A DNA stretch of 64,000 nt, taken from NCBI RefSeq assembly GCF_017696275.1, contig NZ_JAAORF010000001.1, positions 186,001 through 250,000 on the forward strand. Reading direction: 5' to 3'. The first letter of the stretch is position 1. The number at the start of each line of letters is the position of its first letter. Source of the DNA: Prochlorococcus marinus XMU1405. Lineage in GTDB: Bacteria > Cyanobacteriota > Cyanobacteriia > PCC-6307 > Cyanobiaceae. The notes under the pieces were generated by a model. The model was not told where the DNA came from. It worked only from the letters and a program-made list of their open reading frames with translations, and made no database searches. The translations under genes were made by a program, and so were the position numbers. This document shows positions 1 to 59,038 of the stretch, in pieces.

Positions 1-2238
1 TTGATTATAACTTTCAAGACCTACACAAAGATTTATAATAGCTGGTTTACCATAAGCAGTTTTAACATTGGCATCACTAACGTTTATACCTTTATCAGAT
101 AACCGCATAAGAATATCTTTAAGAACTCCAACTCGATCAATTACTTCTATTCGTAGCTGAATTGGAAACTTATTATCGCCAGTTTTATTATCTTGATTCC
201 AACCGACAGGTAATCTTCTCTCTATTGGAATTGGTATTACATTTTCACAATCTTCCCTATGTATAGTTATCCCATGGTTGCCGAGCGACACAGTTCCGAT
301 AATATCCTCGCCTGGGAGTGGGGAACAGCATTTACCTATTCTGTAATCAAGACCTTCTATCCCGGAAATTGGTGATTTAGCTGCTGTATTAGATTGATTA
401 GTGGATAAATTATTATTACTTTTAAGAGATTTTGCTATTTCAGAGTCAGAATCATTTTTTACATCTTCTGTCTGTAATTTTATTTCTTCTCTTAGTCTGT
501 TTAATACTTGATGCAAAGTTAAACCACCAAAACCAAGAGATGCAAGAAGGTCTTCAGTAGTTTTTAAATTGCATCGATTTGCAACTTTTTTCATGGCTTC
601 ACTAGAAAGTAATGCTTCAAAACCGTTTCTACCTACTTCTTTTTCAAGTAAATCTCTACCTCTTTTAATCGTTTCATCACGATGGCTTTTCTTATACCAT
701 TGGCGAATTCTATTTTTAGCAGTTGGCGTAACTACAAAGTTCAGCCAATCTAAGCTTGGAGTAGCATTATTACTTGTCAAAATTTCTATGAAGTCACCAT
801 TTTGAAGTGCTGTAGATAATGGAGAAAGCTTTTCATTAATTCTTATTCCATTACAGTGATTTCCAACTTCAGAATGGATTCTGTAGGCGAAATCTATCGC
901 GGTAGATCCTTTCCTTAAACCAACAACATCTCCTTTTGGAGTGATTACAAATACTTCTTCATCAAATAAATCTTCTTTAATTGAAGCTAAATAATCATTA
1001 TGATCCCTTTCATTACCTTCTTGTTGCCATTCTACTAATTGTCTTAGCCAATTAAATCTCTCGGCATTACTTTTAGCAGGAGAACCACCCTCTTTATATT
1101 GCCAATGAGCAGCAATACCATATTCAGCAATTTGATGCATCGAAGTAGTTCTAATTTGAACTTCAATAGGTCGATGTCTTCCAATCACAGAAGTGTGTAA
1201 GGACTGATATCCATTGGGTTTTGGTAATCCTATATAGTCTTTAAATCTACCTGGAATTGGTTTGAAAGTATCATGAACAACTGCTAAAGCTCTATAACAA
1301 CTATCTGAATTGTCCACGATAATTCTTAGGGCAGCAACATCATAAATCTCGTGAAATTGCTTTTGTTGTCTTTCCATTTTGCTCCAGATGCCATAAAGAT
1401 GTTTTGGCCTTCCTGTTATTTCAAAATTTTTCAAACCCGCTGAAATCAAGTTTTCCTTCATAAGATTCAAAGTTACTTTTAATCTTTTTTCTCTATCACT
1501 TCTTTTAACGGCGATTTGATCTTTAAGATCTAGATATTCTTTAGGCTCTAGGAATTTAAAAGCTAAATCTTCTAATTCCCATTTAAATCTGTTTATTCCT
1601 AGTCGATTAGCTAATGGTGCATAAATCTCTCTTGTTTCTCTCGCTATTCTTAGTTTTTTCTCATCATTTAGCCATTCAATTGTTCTCATGTTATGAAGTC
1701 GATCTGCAAGTTTAACTAAGACAACTCTGATATCGCTGGCCATAGCCAAAAACATTTTCCTAAGATTTTCAGCTTGTGCTTCAGTCCTGTTGTTAAAGTG
1801 TATGCCGCCTAATTTTGTTACACCCTCTACAAGTATTTTTACTTCTAATCCAAAATTTGTTTCTATTTCGGATAAATCAATGCCAGTATCTTCAACTACA
1901 TCATGTAAAAGGCCTGCAGCAATAACAGATGAACTAGCACCTATTTCTTTAAGGAGATTTGCAACAGCAACGGGGTGGATAATGTATGGCTCGCCGCTCG
2001 CACGGAATTGTCCATCATGAGCTTTATAAGCAAGTTTAAAAGCCTTTACTATAAGGTTTTGATTCTCATCATTTTCTTTATTTGATTTTTCAAAATTATG
2101 TATATCTTTAAGAAGCCAATCTGGAATGTTTATTTGATAATTCAAAGATTCACTTTCATATTTTTTATTTTCAGGCAAAATAGTTTTGGAAACTTCAATT
2201 TCGTTTTTTTCTTTTGAATTTGCAGCTGCCTCGGACAT
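1..2238 (-). CDS. spoT: RelA/SpoT-family (p)ppGpp synthetase/hydrolase, 3' end cut by window
   Basis: Reading leftward from an ATG at 2238, the frame stays open for 746 codons to the window edge, so only the extreme C-terminus is missing. The HD hydrolase domain comes first (HDGQFRASGEPYIIHP, then LLHDVVEDTG), followed by the synthetase domain (DIYDVAALRI, KPNGYQSLHT, EVQIRT, IAAHWQYKEG). TGS and ACT regions should follow, and the last visible residues fit an ACT-like tail. Intact HD and synthetase motifs suggest a bifunctional enzyme that makes and degrades the alarmone (p)ppGpp in starvation signalling. It is divergent from the ABC ATPase gene, with only 54 bp between the two starts. The spoT versus rel naming is by family convention. 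Confidence 0.95.
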   Translation of the reverse strand, partial: MSEAAANSKEKNEIEVSKTILPENKKYESESLNYQINIPDWLLKDIHNFEKSNKENDENQNLIVKAFKLAYKAHDGQFRASGEPYIIHPVAVANLLKEIGASSSVIAAGLLHDVVEDTGIDLSEIETNFGLEVKILVEGVTKLGGIHFNNRTEAQAENLRKMFLAMASDIRVVLVKLADRLHNMRTIEWLNDEKKLRIARETREIYAPLANRLGINRFKWELEDLAFKFLEPKEYLDLKDQIAVKRSDREKRLKVTLNLMKENLISAGLKNFEITGRPKHLYGIWSKMERQQKQFHEIYDVAALRIIVDNSDSCYRALAVVHDTFKPIPGRFKDYIGLPKPNGYQSLHTSVIGRHRPIEVQIRTTSMHQIAEYGIAAHWQYKEGGSPAKSNAERFNWLRQLVEWQQEGNERDHNDYLASIKEDLFDEEVFVITPKGDVVGLRKGSTAIDFAYRIHSEVGNHCNGIRINEKLSPLSTALQNGDFIEILTSNNATPSLDWLNFVVTPTAKNRIRQWYKKSHRDETIKRGRDLLEKEVGRNGFEALLSSEAMKKVANRCNLKTTEDLLASLGFGGLTLHQVLNRLREEIKLQTEDVKNDSDSEIAKSLKSNNNLSTNQSNTAAKSPISGIEGLDYRIGKCCSPLPGEDIIGTVSLGNHGITIHREDCENVIPIPIERRLPVGWNQDNKTGDNKFPIQLRIEVIDRVGVLKDILMRLSDKGINVSDANVKTAYGKPAIINLCVGLESYNQ

Positions 2239-51961: not shown

Positions 51962-53314
51962 TTATTTTGTTATTTTATCAATTTCTAAAAAGAGTTTGTT
52001 AGTTATTTCGCCTGATAAAGAATGAACTTCTTTATAATTTTTGGCTTCAACTAGAACTCTGATTACAGGTTCTGTACCGCTAGGCCTTATATAAACTCTA
52101 CAGTTATCCGAATATGCTGCCTGAAAATTTTTTATAGATTCATCAATTAAGATTTTATTTTTTGGATTTAATTTATTAATATTAAAATCTAATTTTATAT
52201 TAGTTAGTTTTTGAGTAAAAGGTTCGAAACTACTTTTAAGCCAATCATTTAAATTAATATTTTTCTTTTTACAATATTTGGAAATTTGAAGTGCAGTCAA
52301 TATCCCATCACCAGAAAAGTTATTAATTTTTGAAAGTATATGACCTGACTGCTCACCTCCTAAAATAGCTCTTTTTTTCTTAATTGCGTCATGAACATAT
52401 TTATCTCCTACATCAGTTCTATATAAAATTCCTCCAATTTTATTCCAGGACTTTTCAAAACCTAAGTTTGCCATTTGTGTTGATACTAGTAAATTATTGG
52501 TGAGAATTTTTTGTTCCATTAGTTCTCTACCCCAAAGAAAAAGAATATGATCTCCATCCAGCACATTACCTTCTGAATCGATTCCAATTACTCTATCGGC
52601 ATCTCCATCGAAGCTGAATCCCATATCTGCAGGACTCTCTCTTAATGCTTTTTTTAATGGTTCGAGGTTAGTAGAACCACAATTCAAATTAATTTTCAAA
52701 CCATTTTTAGAGTTATTGATAACTTTTACATCAGCACCAAGAGACTGAAAAATTTTTTTTGCGCAAGTTGTTGCTGATCCATGGCATGTGTCTAATATTA
52801 TTCTCAACCCGCTTAAACTTTCTCCACCCATTGTTTGGATTAGGCTTTTAATATAAGTATCCATAAGATCTTTATTTGTTTTTAGGGAAACCACTTTTGT
52901 AGGAATTGATATATTTTTTTTTGACTCTTCAATTATTTTTTGAATTTTATTCTCAAAATTTTTAGTAATTTTTTGACCATTATGATCAAAAATTTTTATT
53001 CCATTATATTCTGGCGGATTATGACTTGCAGATATCATGACACCACTGCTAAAGCTCTCTTGTCTTATTAAAAAAGGAATAGCTGGGGTTGGACAGATTC
53101 CAAGATTTATAAATTTTTTGCCACTTTCATTTATACCTTGTGTTATGGCCTGAAGGAGAATATCTCCACTAATTCTTGTATCTCTTCCAATTAATATTGG
53201 ATTTTTCTTTTTCAAAGACGAACCTAGAGCATAACCTACTTTATAGGCTAGAGAATAAGTTATCTCTTCATTAAATCTTCCTCTTATTCCATCAGTTCCA
53301 AAGATTGATTGCAT
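51962..53314 (-). CDS. glmM: Phosphoglucosamine mutase (GlmM-type)
   Basis: The 450-residue alpha-D-phosphohexomutase has [10 protein letters not shown] at the N-terminus, the phosphoserine loop [16 protein letters not shown], the metal loop [23 protein letters not shown] and the C-terminal phosphate site [16 protein letters not shown]. The closest fit is GlmM, which converts glucosamine-6-P to glucosamine-1-P for cell-wall UDP-GlcNAc. Other hexomutases share these motifs. Confidence 0.93.
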
Positions 53315-53407
53315 AATTAGATTTCGGGAATCAAAGAAGTTTTTGATAACTTTTCAATCCTTATTTTATCAGTTGGTTAAAAGCTTATATTTTTCAATTC
53401 TCTTTAT

Positions 53408-53998
53408 TTGTTTAACTTATTTAAGATACCTTTAGTTAGTAATACCTTAATAGTGCAATCTGAAAGTCGAGAGCCATTTTTAAAGACAAATTTTAAAATA
53501 ATGCTTGTTTTGATTATATCTATTGTTATTATTTCAATGCTTTTGTTTAAAAATCTATTTTTTAAATCAACTTATCTTTTAAAGAGTTTTGGAGAGTTAT
53601 CTGTTGACCCTGAAATAGCTTTCACAAATAATAAACCTACATTTCTTGAATTTTATGCAGAGTGGTGTGAAGTTTGCAAAGAAATGGCTCCACAAGTTTC
53701 TTCTCTTAAAGATGAATACGAAGAAGATATTAATTTTGTTTTTTTAAATGTTGATAATCAAAAATGGGGTAATTACATCGAGAAGTTCGCCGTCAATGGG
53801 ATTCCTCAAGTTAATCTTTTTGATAAAAAGGGGAATCTAATATCTACATTTATTGGTAAACAAGATGAAATAAAAATAAGAGAATCTATTAATAATTTGA
53901 AAAAAGAAGATAAACCCTATGAAGAAATTATTAATGCTGAATTTTCAACAATTCAAGAAAGTAAAAATAATGAGGTAGGTCCTCGCAGTCATTCATAA
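53408..53998 (+). CDS. Membrane-anchored thioredoxin-like protein (TxlA/HCF164-like)
   Basis: The 196-residue protein from TTG 53408 has one membrane anchor (IMLVLIISIVIISMLLF). A thioredoxin fold follows, with active site AEWCEVCKEMAP and FAVNGIPQVNLFDKKGN containing the cis-Pro. TxlA/HCF164 homologues move reducing equivalents across thylakoid or plasma membrane for cytochrome b6f assembly. The start is uncertain: GTG 53453 is an alternative. It converges on thyX with a 3 bp gap. Confidence 0.88.
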   Translation: MFNLFKIPLVSNTLIVQSESREPFLKTNFKIMLVLIISIVIISMLLFKNLFFKSTYLLKSFGELSVDPEIAFTNNKPTFLEFYAEWCEVCKEMAPQVSSLKDEYEEDINFVFLNVDNQKWGNYIEKFAVNGIPQVNLFDKKGNLISTFIGKQDEIKIRESINNLKKEDKPYEEIINAEFSTIQESKNNEVGPRSHS

Positions 53999-54001
53999 TT
54001 T

Positions 54002-54634
54002 TTACCATTCTAAAGATTTTGATACAATCGGAAAACTTTGTTTAAAAATAGACTTGCAATTTTGGGCAATAGACTTATGTTCTTCTTGGGTACCGTGACC
54101 TGACCTTAAATGAATATAATGGATCCACGATCTGCATGATCCAGACATATAGATTCTTGTGGGAGTTGCTAATGGTAAAACAAATCTCGCACATTCTTTG
54201 GCTACACCTTCAGCAAGTAAATCTTCATATAATTCTGAAGCAGCCTGAAAATGTAAACTAATTTTTTCATTGAATCTTTTTTTTAACTTATCAGGGAGGT
54301 CAGGGATTGAATTTTGCCTATTTTTAAAATCTTGACGCCTCAACTCTGGTAAGGGAATATTTCCCAATTGAGAACTATCTGCATATCTTTGTGAAAATTC
54401 CTGGAAAGTAAATGATCTATGTCTTAAAATTTGGGCAGCAATTCCCCTATTGGTTTCTATTTGTAAGGTCATAAATGACTGTTCAAATACACTCCAATGT
54501 TCATTTTTAATGCAATAACTCAATAATTTTGAATAGTCCTGATTTTCCTGATTTTTTGGGTTACTTACTCTTGCAATGTAAGCCATTGTTTTCTCTGCAT
54601 CAGGAGTGAGAGATATTAATTCAACTTTACTCAT
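54002..54634 (-). CDS. thyX: Flavin-dependent thymidylate synthase ThyX
   Basis: The 210-residue protein carries the ThyX signature in RHRSFTFQEFSQRY (RHRxxSxxExSxR type, with Thr in place of the usual Ser). The C-terminal RSWIHYIHLRSGHGTQEEHK is also typical. It makes dTMP from dUMP using FAD and folate, in place of ThyA. It lies 1 bp after dcd in the cobO-like/dcd/thyX operon. Confidence 0.95.
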   Translation of the reverse strand: MSKVELISLTPDAEKTMAYIARVSNPKNQENQDYSKLLSYCIKNEHWSVFEQSFMTLQIETNRGIAAQILRHRSFTFQEFSQRYADSSQLGNIPLPELRRQDFKNRQNSIPDLPDKLKKRFNEKISLHFQAASELYEDLLAEGVAKECARFVLPLATPTRIYMSGSCRSWIHYIHLRSGHGTQEEHKSIAQNCKSIFKQSFPIVSKSLEW

Positions 54635-54635
54635 T

Positions 54636-55229
54636 TTAGATCTTTGCTAGAGTCACTTTTTCTGGTTGGTTTTGATATTTACCTTTTCTGTCGTTATAAG
54701 TTGTAGAGCATGGATCACCTTCAAAAAAGAGTAGTTGACAGATACCCTCATTTGCGTAAATTCTGCAATCTGCGCCTGAACTATTACTGAATTCTAGAGT
54801 TAGGTGGCCTTCCCATCCAGCCTCTGCGGGTGTTGTATTAACAATAATTCCTAGACGTGCGTATGTACTTTTTCCTATGCAAATTACAGTTATGTTTTCT
54901 GGTACTTTCATTTTTTCAAATGCGACTCCTAAACCATAGGAGTGAGCAGGAAGAATAAAAAAATCACCATCATCATCATGGTGAAGAACAGTTTTTTCTA
55001 AATTATCCGGATTAAATTTTTTGGGATTCATCACAGTACCAGGGATATGTCTAAAAATGAGAAATTCTTTTGATGAAAGTCTTAAATCATAGCCATAAGA
55101 AGAACATCCGTAACTCAAAACTGGCTTTTGGTGATTATCAGGTTCAAGATGCCTAACCAAGTTTGATTGGAAAGGATTTATCATTCCTTCAGAAGCTTTT
55201 TTATTTATCCAAAGATCATTTTTTAGCAT
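54636..55229 (-). CDS. dcd: dCTP deaminase
   Basis: The 197-residue protein shows LRLSSKEFLIF, ENITVICIGKSTYARLGIIV and TTPAEAGWEGHLTLEFSNSS, matching dCTP deaminase, with the catalytic Glu in the AGWEGHLTLE region. It converts dCTP to dUTP and so feeds dUMP to ThyX. It lies between the CobO homologue (4 bp) and thyX (1 bp). Confidence 0.93.
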   Translation of the reverse strand: MLKNDLWINKKASEGMINPFQSNLVRHLEPDNHQKPVLSYGCSSYGYDLRLSSKEFLIFRHIPGTVMNPKKFNPDNLEKTVLHHDDDGDFFILPAHSYGLGVAFEKMKVPENITVICIGKSTYARLGIIVNTTPAEAGWEGHLTLEFSNSSGADCRIYANEGICQLLFFEGDPCSTTYNDRKGKYQNQPEKVTLAKI

Positions 55230-55233
55230 TTTT

Positions 55234-55815
55234 TTATGAGCGTAGTTCGGTAATTTGATTAGCCATTAATAATAAATCTTTAGGAATATCTGTACCTGTA
55301 AGGATTACATCTCCTGATAAAAATCGGTTTTCAAGTGTTGAAATCAAATCATCTTTATCAATAATTTCTTTTTTAATTGCAAGAAAAATTTCATCAAGTA
55401 TGATCTGATCATTTTCGCCAGAAAGTAATTCTTTTTTGCAAAAATTCCATAATTTATAAGTAGATTCATGAATAGATTTTTTTAAATTATTATTATTTTC
55501 AATTTCTTTTGAATCATATTGATCAAAGGAATGTGATGATCTTACCCATGTTAAATTCCCACAAAGCTTTACTGCATTTTCAATTCCTTGCTTAACTCCA
55601 CCTTTCATGAATTGTACTAGAAGCACTTTTCTACCAAGAGCAGCATTTCTTAAAGAGTCTCTAATGATAGATGAATAACTTCCTCTAAAAGAAGATTGAT
55701 AGATTTGAATTTGACCGTTTTGTTTAAATTGTTTTAAATTTGACTTATTTGAAGTGGTTGTTTTTACAACATCAAGATTACTTTTGGAATAAGAATTAAA
55801 TGAACTAATCACCAT
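55234..55815 (-). CDS. CobO/BtuR-family protein lacking the P-loop
   Basis: The 193-residue protein follows the cob(I)alamin adenosyltransferase BtuR/CobO in GRKVLLVQFMKGG, ILDEIFLAIKKEII, DVILTGTDIPKDLLLMANQI and the terminal TELR. The ATP-binding GxGKGKTTAALG loop of CobO is replaced by SSFRGSYSSIIRD (residues 41-53). It also ends at ELRS, without the usual tail. It may be catalytically dead, regulatory, or use a different ATP mode. It leads an operon with dcd and thyX, genes of deoxynucleotide supply. Confidence 0.8.
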   Translation of the reverse strand: MVISSFNSYSKSNLDVVKTTTSNKSNLKQFKQNGQIQIYQSSFRGSYSSIIRDSLRNAALGRKVLLVQFMKGGVKQGIENAVKLCGNLTWVRSSHSFDQYDSKEIENNNNLKKSIHESTYKLWNFCKKELLSGENDQIILDEIFLAIKKEIIDKDDLISTLENRFLSGDVILTGTDIPKDLLLMANQITELRS

Positions 55816-55954
55816 TATTTTAGATTTCTTTTCTATATGCAGTATAATTTGAAATTAATTACGCTGCATATAGTGTAATTTTACTTAAAAAATAGTTGGA
55901 AAAGTTGAAGCTAAGCGAGAGATCTCCTTAATGCAACCAATAAGAATTGAAAAT

Positions 55955-55997
55955 TGTTACTGTTGATACAAGATTTTTCAATGTGTCTTCTTAAATT
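55955..55997 (+). promoter_or_regulatory. NtcA-type autoregulatory promoter of ntcA
   Basis: TGT (55955-55957) N10 ACA (55968-55970) is an exact extended NtcA half-site pair. The GTA-N8-TAC core has a single mismatch (GTT-N8-TAC). TAAATT (55992-55997) follows 22 nt after TAC and fits the class II TAN3T -10 box. This predicts positive autoregulation, as known for ntcA in other cyanobacteria. Confidence 0.65.
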
Positions 55998-56017
55998 TTT
56001 TAATAGTCAAGATATTT

Positions 56018-56752
56018 ATGATACCTTCTTCTCGAGGATTCAATCGCTTTAGTTCGCAACAGTCTGGACAAAGTAAAACAAGCTCTTTTGGAGAACGTTT
56101 TCCAATAAATAGAACTTTAATGGAAGTAATTAAAGGTCTAGAGGGTGCAAGCACAGAAATGGTGGAGAGATCTAAAACAATCTTTTTCCCTGGTGATCCT
56201 GCTGAGAGGGTATATCTCATAAGAAGAGGAGCAGTTAGGTTATCAAGAGTTTATGAATCTGGCGAAGAGATAACTGTTGCTTTATTAAGAGAGAATAGCC
56301 TCTTTGGTGTTTTATCTCTTCTTACAGGTCATAGATCTGATCGTTTTTATCACGCCATAGCTTTCACAAGAGTTGAAATGATAACAGCCCCTGCAAACTC
56401 TGTTTTAAGAGCGATAGAGGATGATGCATCTGTAGGACTATTATTGCTGCAGGGACTTTCAAGTAGGATCTTGCAAACAGAAACTATGATAGAAACTCTG
56501 ACTCATAGAGATATGTCTTCTCGCTTAGTAAGCTTTTTGATGGTTTTGTGTAGAGACTTTGGAGTTGCAAGTGAAAAAGGTATTACAATAGATTTGAGGC
56601 TTTCACATCAAGCAATTGCTGAAGCTATTGGTTCTACAAGAGTAACCATAACGAGATTATTAGGAGATTTAAAGGATTCCGGGCTCCTCACCATTGAAAG
56701 AAAAAAAATTACAGTATTTGACCCAATAGCCCTTGCAAAAAGATTTAATTGA
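56018..56752 (+). CDS. ntcA: Global nitrogen regulator NtcA
   Basis: The 244-residue CRP/FNR-family activator has the N-terminal effector domain ([20 protein letters not shown] ... [11 protein letters not shown]), which senses 2-oxoglutarate, and the C-terminal helix-turn-helix [20 protein letters not shown] followed by [10 protein letters not shown]. NtcA activates nitrogen-assimilation genes. An NtcA-type motif with a correctly spaced -10 lies just upstream. Confidence 0.98.
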
Positions 56753-56791
56753 CTCATCATTAATTATGATGTAGCGAGTATACAAAATAAT

Positions 56792-57751
56792 GTGGCTTGG
56801 ATTTTAATTGTTTTTTTGATAATACTTGGCGGATTAATTGCACCATTTGGTGATCTTCTTGGAACGAAGATTGGAAAGGCAAGATTTAGTATCTTAAAAT
56901 TAAGACCAAAAAAAACAGCAACAATAATAACGATAATAACTGGTGGATTTATTAGTGCAATTTCTATAGGCTTATTGCTTCTATTTAGTGAAGAATTTAG
57001 GCAAAGACTTTTTGTTGATATTCCCTTTCTCCAAAAAACTTTGGATGAAAGTAAAAAGGCACTTGTTCCTTTACAGGAAGAAACAAAAATGCTTGAAGAT
57101 AAGATTATTAATAAAGAAAAGGAATTAAACAAACTAAAAAGTAATATTAAAGAATTTAGAAGTGGAAATGTAGTTATTAAACGAGGTCAAACATTATTTA
57201 TTGCAGAAGTCACTTCTAATCCAAATATAAAATTAGATCTAGGAAAAATTTATAATAGTGCTGATAAATATGTTCAAAAAATTGTAATCCCTAATAAAAA
57301 AGAAAAAGAAAATATTCTTTTGTGGAGGCCTAATGATCTTTCTGAAATAGAAGGAGTTACTTCAAAAACTGGGAATTGGATCCTATTGATTAAATCAGCA
57401 ACTAATGTTTTGAAAGGAGATAATTTTGTTTTTGTATATCCAGAGTTGTTACAAAATAAGATTATTGTAAAAGAGGGGGAAGTTATTAACAGCGAAATTT
57501 TTGGGAAAAATGATATAGATAATAAAAACATTAATTCAAAAATTAAAAACTTGTTGAGAAAAACAACAGATAAAATTAAATTAAAGGGATCAATAGTTAA
57601 CGAAATTAATACCAGAGGAAACTTTATTAAAAAAATTAGAGATTATTTGAAGATATCTCAAGATATAAAATATAAATTAGAGGTGATATCATTAAAAAAT
57701 AGTAAAACAGCAGAGCCAATAATAGTTGATTTAATTATTACCAAGTTGTAG
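56792..57751 (+). CDS. DUF3084 membrane-anchored protein
   Basis: The 319-residue protein starts with GTG 56792. It has two N-terminal helices (AWILIVFLIILGGLIAPFGD; TIITIITGGFISAISIGLLL), a coiled coil (about 85-130), and a C-terminal soluble domain. The pattern fits cyanobacterial DUF3084, of unknown function. It lies 40 bp after ntcA and 5 bp before the YqgF-like gene, so these form a likely operon. Confidence 0.82.
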   Translation: MAWILIVFLIILGGLIAPFGDLLGTKIGKARFSILKLRPKKTATIITIITGGFISAISIGLLLLFSEEFRQRLFVDIPFLQKTLDESKKALVPLQEETKMLEDKIINKEKELNKLKSNIKEFRSGNVVIKRGQTLFIAEVTSNPNIKLDLGKIYNSADKYVQKIVIPNKKEKENILLWRPNDLSEIEGVTSKTGNWILLIKSATNVLKGDNFVFVYPELLQNKIIVKEGEVINSEIFGKNDIDNKNINSKIKNLLRKTTDKIKLKGSIVNEINTRGNFIKKIRDYLKISQDIKYKLEVISLKNSKTAEPIIVDLIITKL

Positions 57752-57756
57752 TTTTT

Positions 57757-58194
57757 ATGTCGAAAATTATATCTATTGATCCTGGTAAATTTAAATGTGG
57801 GTTAGTTTTAGCTGAAATAAATAATAAAAAAGTTTATAAAGCCATCATTCTTAAAAGTGCATTTCTTGAGGATTATGTGAGAAATTTAAATACTGTTGAA
57901 AACATATCAAAAATTATTATTGGAAATGGTACAACTAGTAAAGAGATTAGGGAAAAACTAAATTTTTTAAAAAAAGAAATAATTTCTTTTGAAGAGAAAG
58001 ATACTACTTATAGAGCCAAGGAAAGATATTTTAAACTTTTCCCAATAAGAGGTATGAAGTTTTTAATTCCTAGGGAGTTTTTTATAATTAACAAAAATCT
58101 TGATGCTATATCTGCTTTAATAATATTAGAGGATTATTGTAAAATAGAGTTTACGTTTGATCGGAATGTAGAGTTTAAAACTTGGCTGAAATAG
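57757..58194 (+). CDS. YqgF/RuvC-like RNase H-fold protein
   Basis: The 145-residue protein begins SKIISIDPGKFKCGLVLAEI, matching the first strand and catalytic Asp of the YqgF/RuvC RNase H fold, and has ISKIIIGNGTTSKEIREKL as the second core strand. It may be a nuclease of the pre-rRNA or Holliday-junction type, or a non-catalytic relative. It lies 5 bp after DUF3084. The last 20 bp overlap the convergent DUF3146 gene. Confidence 0.72.
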   Translation: MSKIISIDPGKFKCGLVLAEINNKKVYKAIILKSAFLEDYVRNLNTVENISKIIIGNGTTSKEIREKLNFLKKEIISFEEKDTTYRAKERYFKLFPIRGMKFLIPREFFIINKNLDAISALIILEDYCKIEFTFDRNVEFKTWLK

Positions 58195-58432
58195 TCAATT
58201 TATATTCATTACCTGCTTCAAGTTCATAATCTTTTTTTAATAAAAATCTCAATAAGGCATCTTCAATTAATGCTCTTCCTAGTGGAGGATTCACTAATAA
58301 CAAACCTTTATTAAAGGACCATGTAAAAGTCCATTTAAATTGACTAGCTTCAACAACTCCCTTAATTTGCTTTTTTGAAAAACAATACTCATTGACACTT
58401 ATATTGGCTATTGTTTCTGGTTTTGAACGCAT
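58175..58432 (-). CDS. DUF3146 protein
   Basis: The 85-residue protein's pattern (QIKGVVEASQFKWTFTWSFN; LVNPPLGRALIEDALLRFLL; DYELEAGNEYKLTISAKF) matches cyanobacterial DUF3146. The function is unknown. It is 3 bp after pth on the minus strand and overlaps the convergent YqgF-like gene by 20 bp. Confidence 0.82.
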   Translation of the reverse strand: MRSKPETIANISVNEYCFSKKQIKGVVEASQFKWTFTWSFNKGLLLVNPPLGRALIEDALLRFLLKKDYELEAGNEYKLTISAKF

Positions 58433-58435
58433 TTT

Positions 58436-59038
58436 TTATGGTTGGTCTTTATCAAAAGAATTTAATTCATTAATAATATTTTCTTCTTTTTTAGTATTAA
58501 GTTGTTCGAGGGATTCTATTACTCTTCTATATACTTTATCTAATATTGAATTTTCTTCTAGAGAAATATTTCCTAAAACATGTGAAATGGTATTGAAATT
58601 ATTTTTTCCTTTTATAAGAGGAGGTGAACCAATACCAATTCTTATTCTCTTGAAGTTTTGTGTTTGTAATTGTTCAATGACGCTTTTAAGACCGTTATGT
58701 CCTCCTGAGCTCCCTTTTTTTCTAAATCTTATTTTTCCAAGGGGAAGATCTTTATCATCAACTATTATAAAAATCTGATCTAGATTTATTTTGTACCAAT
58801 CAACTATTGCTCGGACAGCATCACCACTGTTATTCATAAAAGTATTTGGTAAAAATAACCTGAAAGTACAATTATTGATTTGAAATTCTGAGCAGGAACT
58901 TTTAAGTTTATCTTTTATTAGAAAATTTGAGTTATGTTTTTTTGAGAGTTTCTCAAGCAGTAAGAATCCAATATTATGCCTAGTTTTTGAATATTTTTTT
59001 CCAGGATTACCCAATCCAATTAGATATATTTCATTCAT
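58436..59038 (-). CDS. pth: Peptidyl-tRNA hydrolase
   Basis: The 200-residue protein has LIGLGNPGKKYSKTRHNIGF (catalytic His), LFLPNTFMNNSGDAV and IIVDDKDLPLGKIRFRKKG then SSGGHNGLKS. It recycles peptidyl-tRNAs released from ribosomes. It lies 128 bp after psbH, with a terminator in between. Confidence 0.96.
   Translation of the reverse strand: MNEIYLIGLGNPGKKYSKTRHNIGFLLLEKLSKKHNSNFLIKDKLKSSCSEFQINNCTFRLFLPNTFMNNSGDAVRAIVDWYKINLDQIFIIVDDKDLPLGKIRFRKKGSSGGHNGLKSVIEQLQTQNFKRIRIGIGSPPLIKGKNNFNTISHVLGNISLEENSILDKVYRRVIESLEQLNTKKEENIINELNSFDKDQP

Follow-up and report, generated by a model that had tools for sequence, protein, structure and literature searches.

A CobO-fold protein without a Walker A loop heads a dcd-thyX gene unit in Prochlorococcus and co-occurs with adenosylcobalamin-dependent ribonucleotide reductase

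RESULTS

Gene content and profile matches

The DNA analysed here (the window) is a stretch of 64 000 nucleotides from Prochlorococcus marinus XMU1405. At 55234..55815 (-) it carries a gene with an ATG start for a protein of 193 aa, which its ORF, profile matches, fold and place in a tree identify as a P-loop-less CobO-fold protein of the PRK07414-type clade; we use q as shorthand for both the gene and the protein. Downstream on the same strand follow dcd (dCTP deaminase, 54636..55229 (-); TIGR02274, 121 bits, cut-off 92.8) and thyX (FAD-dependent thymidylate synthase, 54002..54634 (-); TIGR02170, 168.2 bits, cut-off 87.9). The spacings are 4 bp from q to dcd and 1 bp from dcd to thyX, in agreement with a preliminary description of this DNA made from its sequence. 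On the other side, ntcA (56018..56752 (+); TIGR03697, 363.4 bits, cut-off 244.95) is the divergent upstream neighbour of q and forms context outside the unit. A search of positions 53000-58500 for a cobalamin riboswitch gave no Rfam match at E ≤1.

PF02572 matches q at 77.1 bits (cut-off 25.7), and no other Pfam domain was found in the protein. Against the cobA equivalog TIGR00708 it scores 63.6 bits, far under the cut-off of 167.75. Its top NCBIfam match, NF005648/PRK07414 ('P-loop NTPase family protein'), gives 130.3 bits, below the cut-off of 248. An AF2 model (pLDDT 86, pTM 0.79) has the CobA fold: Foldseek returned 4hut (E 2e-10), and superposition on 1g5r gave a VIA Z of 19.1 with an rmsd of 2.6 over 148 residues.

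The CobO fold without its ATP-binding loop

The preliminary description had claimed that the P-loop of a CobO homologue is replaced here by SSFRGSYSSIIRD at residues 41-53 (55657..55695 (-)) while the rest of the fold remains recognisable. Both halves of the claim are borne out, the first by the ORF and the CobA alignment, the second by PF02572 and the fold model. In a 36-sequence profile alignment to Salmonella CobA (1g5r; E 6e-23), SSFRGSYS (S41-S48) aligns with GNGKGKTT (G36-T43), such that R44 falls on K39, S46 on the Walker lysine K41 and Y47 on T42. Not one of the 36 aligned family proteins has GK[ST] at the Walker A site. Across the family the column of the Walker lysine is filled by F, S, L, N or M and the next (threonine) column by F, Y or L, while the R44 column, the position of the first lysine of Walker A, is R in 35/36. 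A shifted P-loop was also considered and can be ruled out for q: the sole GKT in the family (L056) sits just before the next strand.

Other parts of the active site are kept. The Walker B-type acidic pair D141-E142 (55390..55395 (-)) is present in 35/36 (D141) and 36/36 (E142) proteins and fits the hhhhDE pattern, so that of the two P-loop NTPase signatures q has lost Walker A and retained Walker B. Seventeen columns are invariant in the 36 proteins, among them G34, Q37, Q68, G73, G77, W90, R92, W123, E142, T173, G174 and R192; the W-x-R motif (W90-x-R92) is kept across the clade.

Two further losses accompany that of the loop. In all 14 canonical CobO ends the E-[LM]-[RK] strand is followed by a KH...GIE/GVD tail; no such tail is left in q, where 35/36 proteins end 0-5 residues past TELR, the exception (L079) having an unlike tail of 41 residues. 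The F-x-W motif, which we take to be F91/W93 of Salmonella CobA with a role in corrinoid binding, is absent from its place in 36/36 q proteins. This second loss is the weaker sign, because P-loop-bearing proteins can also be without F[TDS]W: the pattern occurs in 11/14 canonical CobO (3/14 lack it) and in 0/12 tandem CobO halves.

Measured against the ATP:corrinoid adenosyltransferases, with Salmonella CobA/BtuR/CobO (PF02572; 1g5r, 1g64, 4hut) as reference, q thus shares the PF02572 match, the CobA fold, the Walker B acids, Q-F-x-K-G, T-G and the E-L-R end, but is without Walker A, F-x-W, the C-terminal tail and a TIGR00708 score over the cut-off. Since both the P-loop and the tail are missing, we infer from the sequence that q no longer adenosylates corrinoids as CobO does.

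That q is an adenosyltransferase is assumed by automatic annotation and in the 2018 paper on Trichodesmium; it would then have to hold ATP by other means. We consider this very unlikely. The PF02572 match and the retained D141/E142 would fit such an enzyme, as would its listing as a btuR copy, if Tery_2088 (see below) belongs to the q family; set against these are a family in which 36/36 proteins lack GKT/GKS at the site, the lost tail, the TIGR00708 score and the presence of two other CobO-type genes in the same genome. A second, intact cobO, for which the preliminary description had proposed a search, lies at C1:471189-471710 and carries GNGKGKTT. There is also a tandem double CobO of 386 aa with two intact P-loops (PRK07413/NF005647; L002/L166, G000 C3:493115-494257). 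The tandem protein, which by description is of the Tery_4685 type, resembles q in being CobO-derived and in tracking class II ribonucleotide reductase (RNR; see below), but differs in having two P-loops, in forming a separate clade and, in the window's genome, in lying apart from the dcd unit.

Three btuR-domain genes have been described in cyanobacteria: a canonical one, Tery_2088 (178 aa, in an all-cyanobacterial clade) and the duplicated Tery_4685. In Trichodesmium the products of all three were detected, and different adenosylation substrates were proposed for them (PMC5816740, as far as the available part of that paper goes). Judging by length (the model has 178 positions) and distribution, the q clade is probably the Tery_2088 clade, and the q family, which is known by name, has probably been described before as a cyanobacterial btuR copy. 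The main text of that paper contains neither 'P-loop' nor 'dCTP', and its available part says nothing of dcd, of the loss of the P-loop or of any connection with RNR class. It is the only paper in the literature searched in which the family turned up, provided that Tery_2088 belongs to it. The literature searched, from which many journals are missing, likewise yielded nothing on the missing P-loop, on an RNR-class link of the extra CobO genes or on a dUMP context, no paper on PRK07414, and none combining adenosyltransferase, Prochlorococcus and dCTP deaminase. Against that literature, what is new here is the linkage of q and the tandem CobO to RNR class, the loss of the P-loop and the dUMP-pathway setting.

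A cyanobacterial clade under purifying selection

We built a tree of 49 CobO-type domains, including 22 q proteins, with the Walker columns left out and L079 entered without its N-terminal part. A single branch, with an SH-aLRT of 100, sets off the q proteins, all 22 of which lie on the same side of it. The clade includes L035, L061, L065, L070 and others that score over the NF005648 cut-off, and therefore forms one clade with PRK07414; that cut-off is passed by 67/386 genomes. The protein of the window belongs to the same clade while scoring below the cut-off, and the name of the model implies a P-loop.

The preliminary description had proposed comparing Prochlorococcus and Synechococcus homologues, and the loss proved wider than this: it is found in 19 families of the class and in a Gloeobacter morelensis plasmid protein (WP_230844315.1; L189:1405-1983 (+)). 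The latter, annotated as an adenosyltransferase, groups with the q clade, its place inside the clade being unsure (long branch). When plasmids were searched with q, this protein was the best match (39.6%), and the rest were Thermus cobO, among the best 15 of 151 records. Two names, 'P-loop NTPase' in NCBIfam and adenosyltransferase in the Gloeobacter plasmid record, thus sit on a protein without the loop.

From a scan of genome contigs we took the best 80 q loci (79 labelled Prochlorococcus, one Synechococcaceae). The R-G-x-[YF] loop is present in all 80 (79 by pattern, L160 by reading), as is the order ntcA (divergent), q, dcd; thyX comes next in 78, the other two loci ending inside or just past dcd. 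Because every locus shows the same loop and gene order, the loss of the P-loop is not an effect of sequencing or chance. Among 63 q sequences of equal length, the median dN/dS was 0.20 (1943 pairs with dS 0.1-1): q is under purifying selection. Taken on their sequences, these proteins are an old, selected paralogue of CobO, in which the lost P-loop marks a cyanobacterial clade and is no accident.

Co-occurrence with AdoCbl-dependent RNR

For the distribution of q we drew 186 genomes of the class and used 160 in two panels; the 26 left out all belong to the window's own family. Panel 1 held 80 genomes (45 with q, 35 without), hand-picked before the RNR results with at least one from each of 29 families. 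Panel 2 held 80 further genomes (66 with q, 14 without), in which q status came from profile searches and the class I beta subunit alone was tested for. TIGR02505 was used for class II triphosphate RNR and PF00268 for class I beta. Three genomes (G111, G123, G213) that pass E 1e-20 for NF005648 were counted as lacking q, their match being canonical CobO, and so was G385, in which the copy is broken. A search of the 35 panel 1 genomes counted as lacking q with the 36-row profile revealed no hidden copy: leaving G385 aside, the highest score was 94.8 bits, from a canonical CobO. The broken copy of G385 reached 104.8 bits, against 241-256 in four q-bearing controls.

All 45 genomes with q in panel 1 have an AdoCbl-dependent RNR (TIGR02505 in 44; NrdJ_Z, TIGR02504 over the cut-off, in G296). 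Among the control genomes, Synechococcus elongatus has TIGR02505, and for NF005648 and NF005647 one control each, presumably S. elongatus, scores over the cut-off. Class I beta was found in 0/45 of them, against 28/35 genomes without q. In panel 2 the corresponding counts were 2/66 (G125 and G167) and 14/14. Twenty-seven of the 28 class I genomes of panel 1 have that class alone; G203 has class II as well. Conversely, class II RNR occurs without an intact q in 7/35 genomes (G054, G121, G326, G368, G284 and G203, plus G385 with its broken copy), and six panel 1 genomes without q, G385 among them, have class II only. For G051 (one contig, 99% complete, with a tandem CobO), no match to class I beta, RTPR or PF02867 was found.

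Two of these genomes deserve a separate remark. In G385 (L184, C1:1599676-1600215) q is broken by several stops, and class II RNR and the tandem CobO are kept. The RNR of G296 (L192:759-3839 (-)) is an NrdJ_Z-type protein of 1027 aa with an insert that matches intein-bearing models; the other panel genomes with q have the RTPR type.

We also used an rpoC1 tree of 79 genomes (G131 missing), made from this one gene by a quick method. It gave six independent contrasts in RNR class; q follows in 6/6 of them in 63/200 random pairings and in 5/6 with one tie in 137/200, and never runs in the reverse direction. Contrasts started from q number 10, six with a change of RNR and four without. The six contrasts rest on weak branches, because only one RNR-class contrast remains when strongly supported branches are used (in that run the frame of G175 was wrong; it was rechosen for the six-contrast run), and the class I genomes are concentrated largely in one part of the tree. 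Since q is absent or broken in seven class II genomes and changes without RNR in 4/10 of its own contrasts, it is not required for class II RNR. The pattern shows q nested within AdoCbl-RNR lineages, yet gained or lost several times without a change of RNR, most simply by loss.

Of the two extra CobO-type genes, the tandem CobO is the closer follower of class II RNR. It scores over its cut-off in 44/45 panel 1 genomes with q (the exception is G087), in seven without q (G051 plus the six class II-only genomes) and in 0/27 class I-only genomes, one of which (G172) shows a fragmentary match of 77 residues; in G203 a partial match lies at a contig end. It follows RNR class in 6/6 contrasts (two-sided sign p 0.03 by arithmetic). 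This makes the tandem protein a candidate for the charger of the RNR cofactor, and q, which follows RNR class less closely, might have the more peripheral role.

Gene neighbourhood of q across cyanobacteria

Downstream of q, on its strand and no more than 2.5 kb away, dcd is found in 31/45 panel 1 genomes with q, from 12 families. This amounts to 31/37 of those with a dcd over the cut-off; in six dcd is elsewhere, and in eight (8/45) no dcd passes the cut-off, although G085 has a sub-cut-off match of 82.6 bits and inteins can hide others. Intein-like interruptions were seen by eye: the dcd frames of L042:1-1497 (-) and L047:1997-3532 (+) run into an intein-like stretch after ...CIGKSTYAR, and thyX of L077:2425-4296 (-) carries an in-frame, intein-like insertion, part of which is HNH-like. 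Elsewhere, two dcd-like genes stand in tandem downstream of q (L053:213-824 and 841-1455 (-)).

We read 66 q loci closely, from 64 genomes (G027 and G074 contributing two each). As 43 of these loci are just 3.5 kb long, absent neighbours make the counts lower bounds: dcd in 42/66, dut in 7 and thyX of either type in up to 19. Six loci (L074, L081, L083, L041, L058 and L063), none of them with dcd, have a dCMP deaminase, the families being named by Pfam; it lies within 0.4 kb of q in four and within 3 kb in all six. A class II RNR gene was beside q in 0/66 loci, and in the window's genome RNR is on another contig. The nearest neighbours of q are dcd and other genes of dUMP and dTMP formation, not the gene for RNR.

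On the other side of q, rph is found in 43/66 loci and adk in 30/66. Inherited gene order explains part of the q-dcd adjacency, rph and adk being conserved neighbours as well. In Prochlorococcus and its family, ntcA occupies the other side and q-dcd is still kept. That q is itself no more than a relic carried by conserved gene order seems to us extremely unlikely; the conservation of rph and adk and the broken copy in G385 would agree with it, whereas the dN/dS of 0.20, the 17 invariant columns and the persistence of q in differing settings (ntcA or rph/adk side) would not.

The neighbourhood also bears on a reading without cobalamin, in which q regulates the dUMP branch or belongs to it as a subunit, partnering dCTP or dCMP deaminase, and its link to RNR merely reflects lineages that reduce triphosphates and so make dCTP. 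It would account for dcd as the nearest conserved neighbour, with q first on the same strand in 31/37 genomes, for the survival of q-dcd when the upstream side switches from rph/adk to ntcA, and for dCMP deaminase near q where dcd is lacking. It accounts less well for genomes that keep q with dcd elsewhere (six) or with no dcd over the cut-off (8/45), for AdoCbl-RNR in 45/45, and for class I genomes that have dcd and no q (e.g. in families f14, f2 and f20). We regard it as possible, though on the doubtful side.

DISCUSSION

The reading we lean towards, and hold to be somewhat probable, is that q is a non-adenosylating, non-catalytic accessory of AdoCbl-RNR-based dNTP supply. The link that the preliminary description had drawn to B12-dependent RNR and deoxynucleotide supply is supported by the co-occurrence with RNR and by the dUMP/dTMP neighbours. 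Placed by the CobA alignment, the former ATP pocket is probably lined by R44, E142 and W90-x-R92. Rebuilt in this way, it may bind another ligand, for which AdoCbl and a dNTP are candidates, or a partner such as RNR, the tandem CobO or Dcd. The protein would then bring the AdoCbl-RNR side into step with the dUMP/dTMP branch encoded near it (Dcd, Dut or dCMP deaminase, ThyX). As seven genomes retain class II RNR without an intact q, the protein should tune or protect and not be essential. Pseudoenzymes offer a parallel: they have lost catalysis and kept the fold, and their role has shifted to binding. Like these dead-enzyme regulators, q keeps the fold and part of the active site; its partner or ligand is hypothetical.

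The preliminary description had gone from a recognisable fold to a cobalamin carrier or sensor, that is, a CobO pocket that holds AdoCbl or cob(II)alamin and passes it to RNR or reports its level. The fold and the co-occurrence with AdoCbl-RNR and the tandem CobO would suit this role, and cyanobacterial B12 is said, in the available part of one source, to serve two enzymes, NrdJ and MetH (PMC6370689). That step is weakened by the missing KH...GIE tail (35/36) and, as a lesser sign, the missing F-x-W (36/36); against the role also stand the absence of any other Pfam match in q and of an Rfam riboswitch near the unit. We consider the carrier or sensor unlikely.

A more specific scheme, which we offer tentatively as possible yet rather improbable, includes the tandem protein as well. 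AdoCbl-RNR cyanobacteria would possess a CobO-derived module of their own, which class I species lack and in which the tandem CobO charges or re-charges the RNR cofactor and q, a dead CobO, acts as its regulatory partner. Through its rebuilt ATP pocket q would read AdoCbl or a deoxynucleotide and couple RNR to dUMP/dTMP formation.

The findings touch on two questions: by what route the class II RNRs of oxygenic phototrophs acquire and retain B12 as their cofactor, and how dTTP supply is balanced where RNR acts on triphosphates. As q and the tandem CobO come and go with RNR class, they are named, deletable candidates for both. For metabolic models of Prochlorococcus, counting q as a B12-synthesis gene would be misleading, because the ATP loop is absent from every copy read.

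Phage records were also searched. Cyanophage P-SS2 (L191, GQ334450.1) carries a tandem CobO with 50% identity to the host gene and both P-loops kept; it is the only named phage to match among 50,697 records, in which one unannotated record half-matches at 30%. Its class II RNR, stated in the available part of its paper (PMC2784084), has 54.8% identity. If the module scheme were true, P-SS2, which brings a tandem CobO along with its class II RNR, would have acquired one half of the module. Class II RNR is matched by 681 phage records, many of them without a tandem CobO. Searching with q gave four matching records, none a q gene on a named phage: three of P-SS2, where the match is the tandem cobO (26%), and one of an unannotated gut phage (27%). 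The tandem CobO as query had no match in IMG/VR. In IMG/VR, two contigs (L272 and L273) hold q-dcd-thyX, 83-86% to the window; they probably represent Prochlorococcus host DNA.
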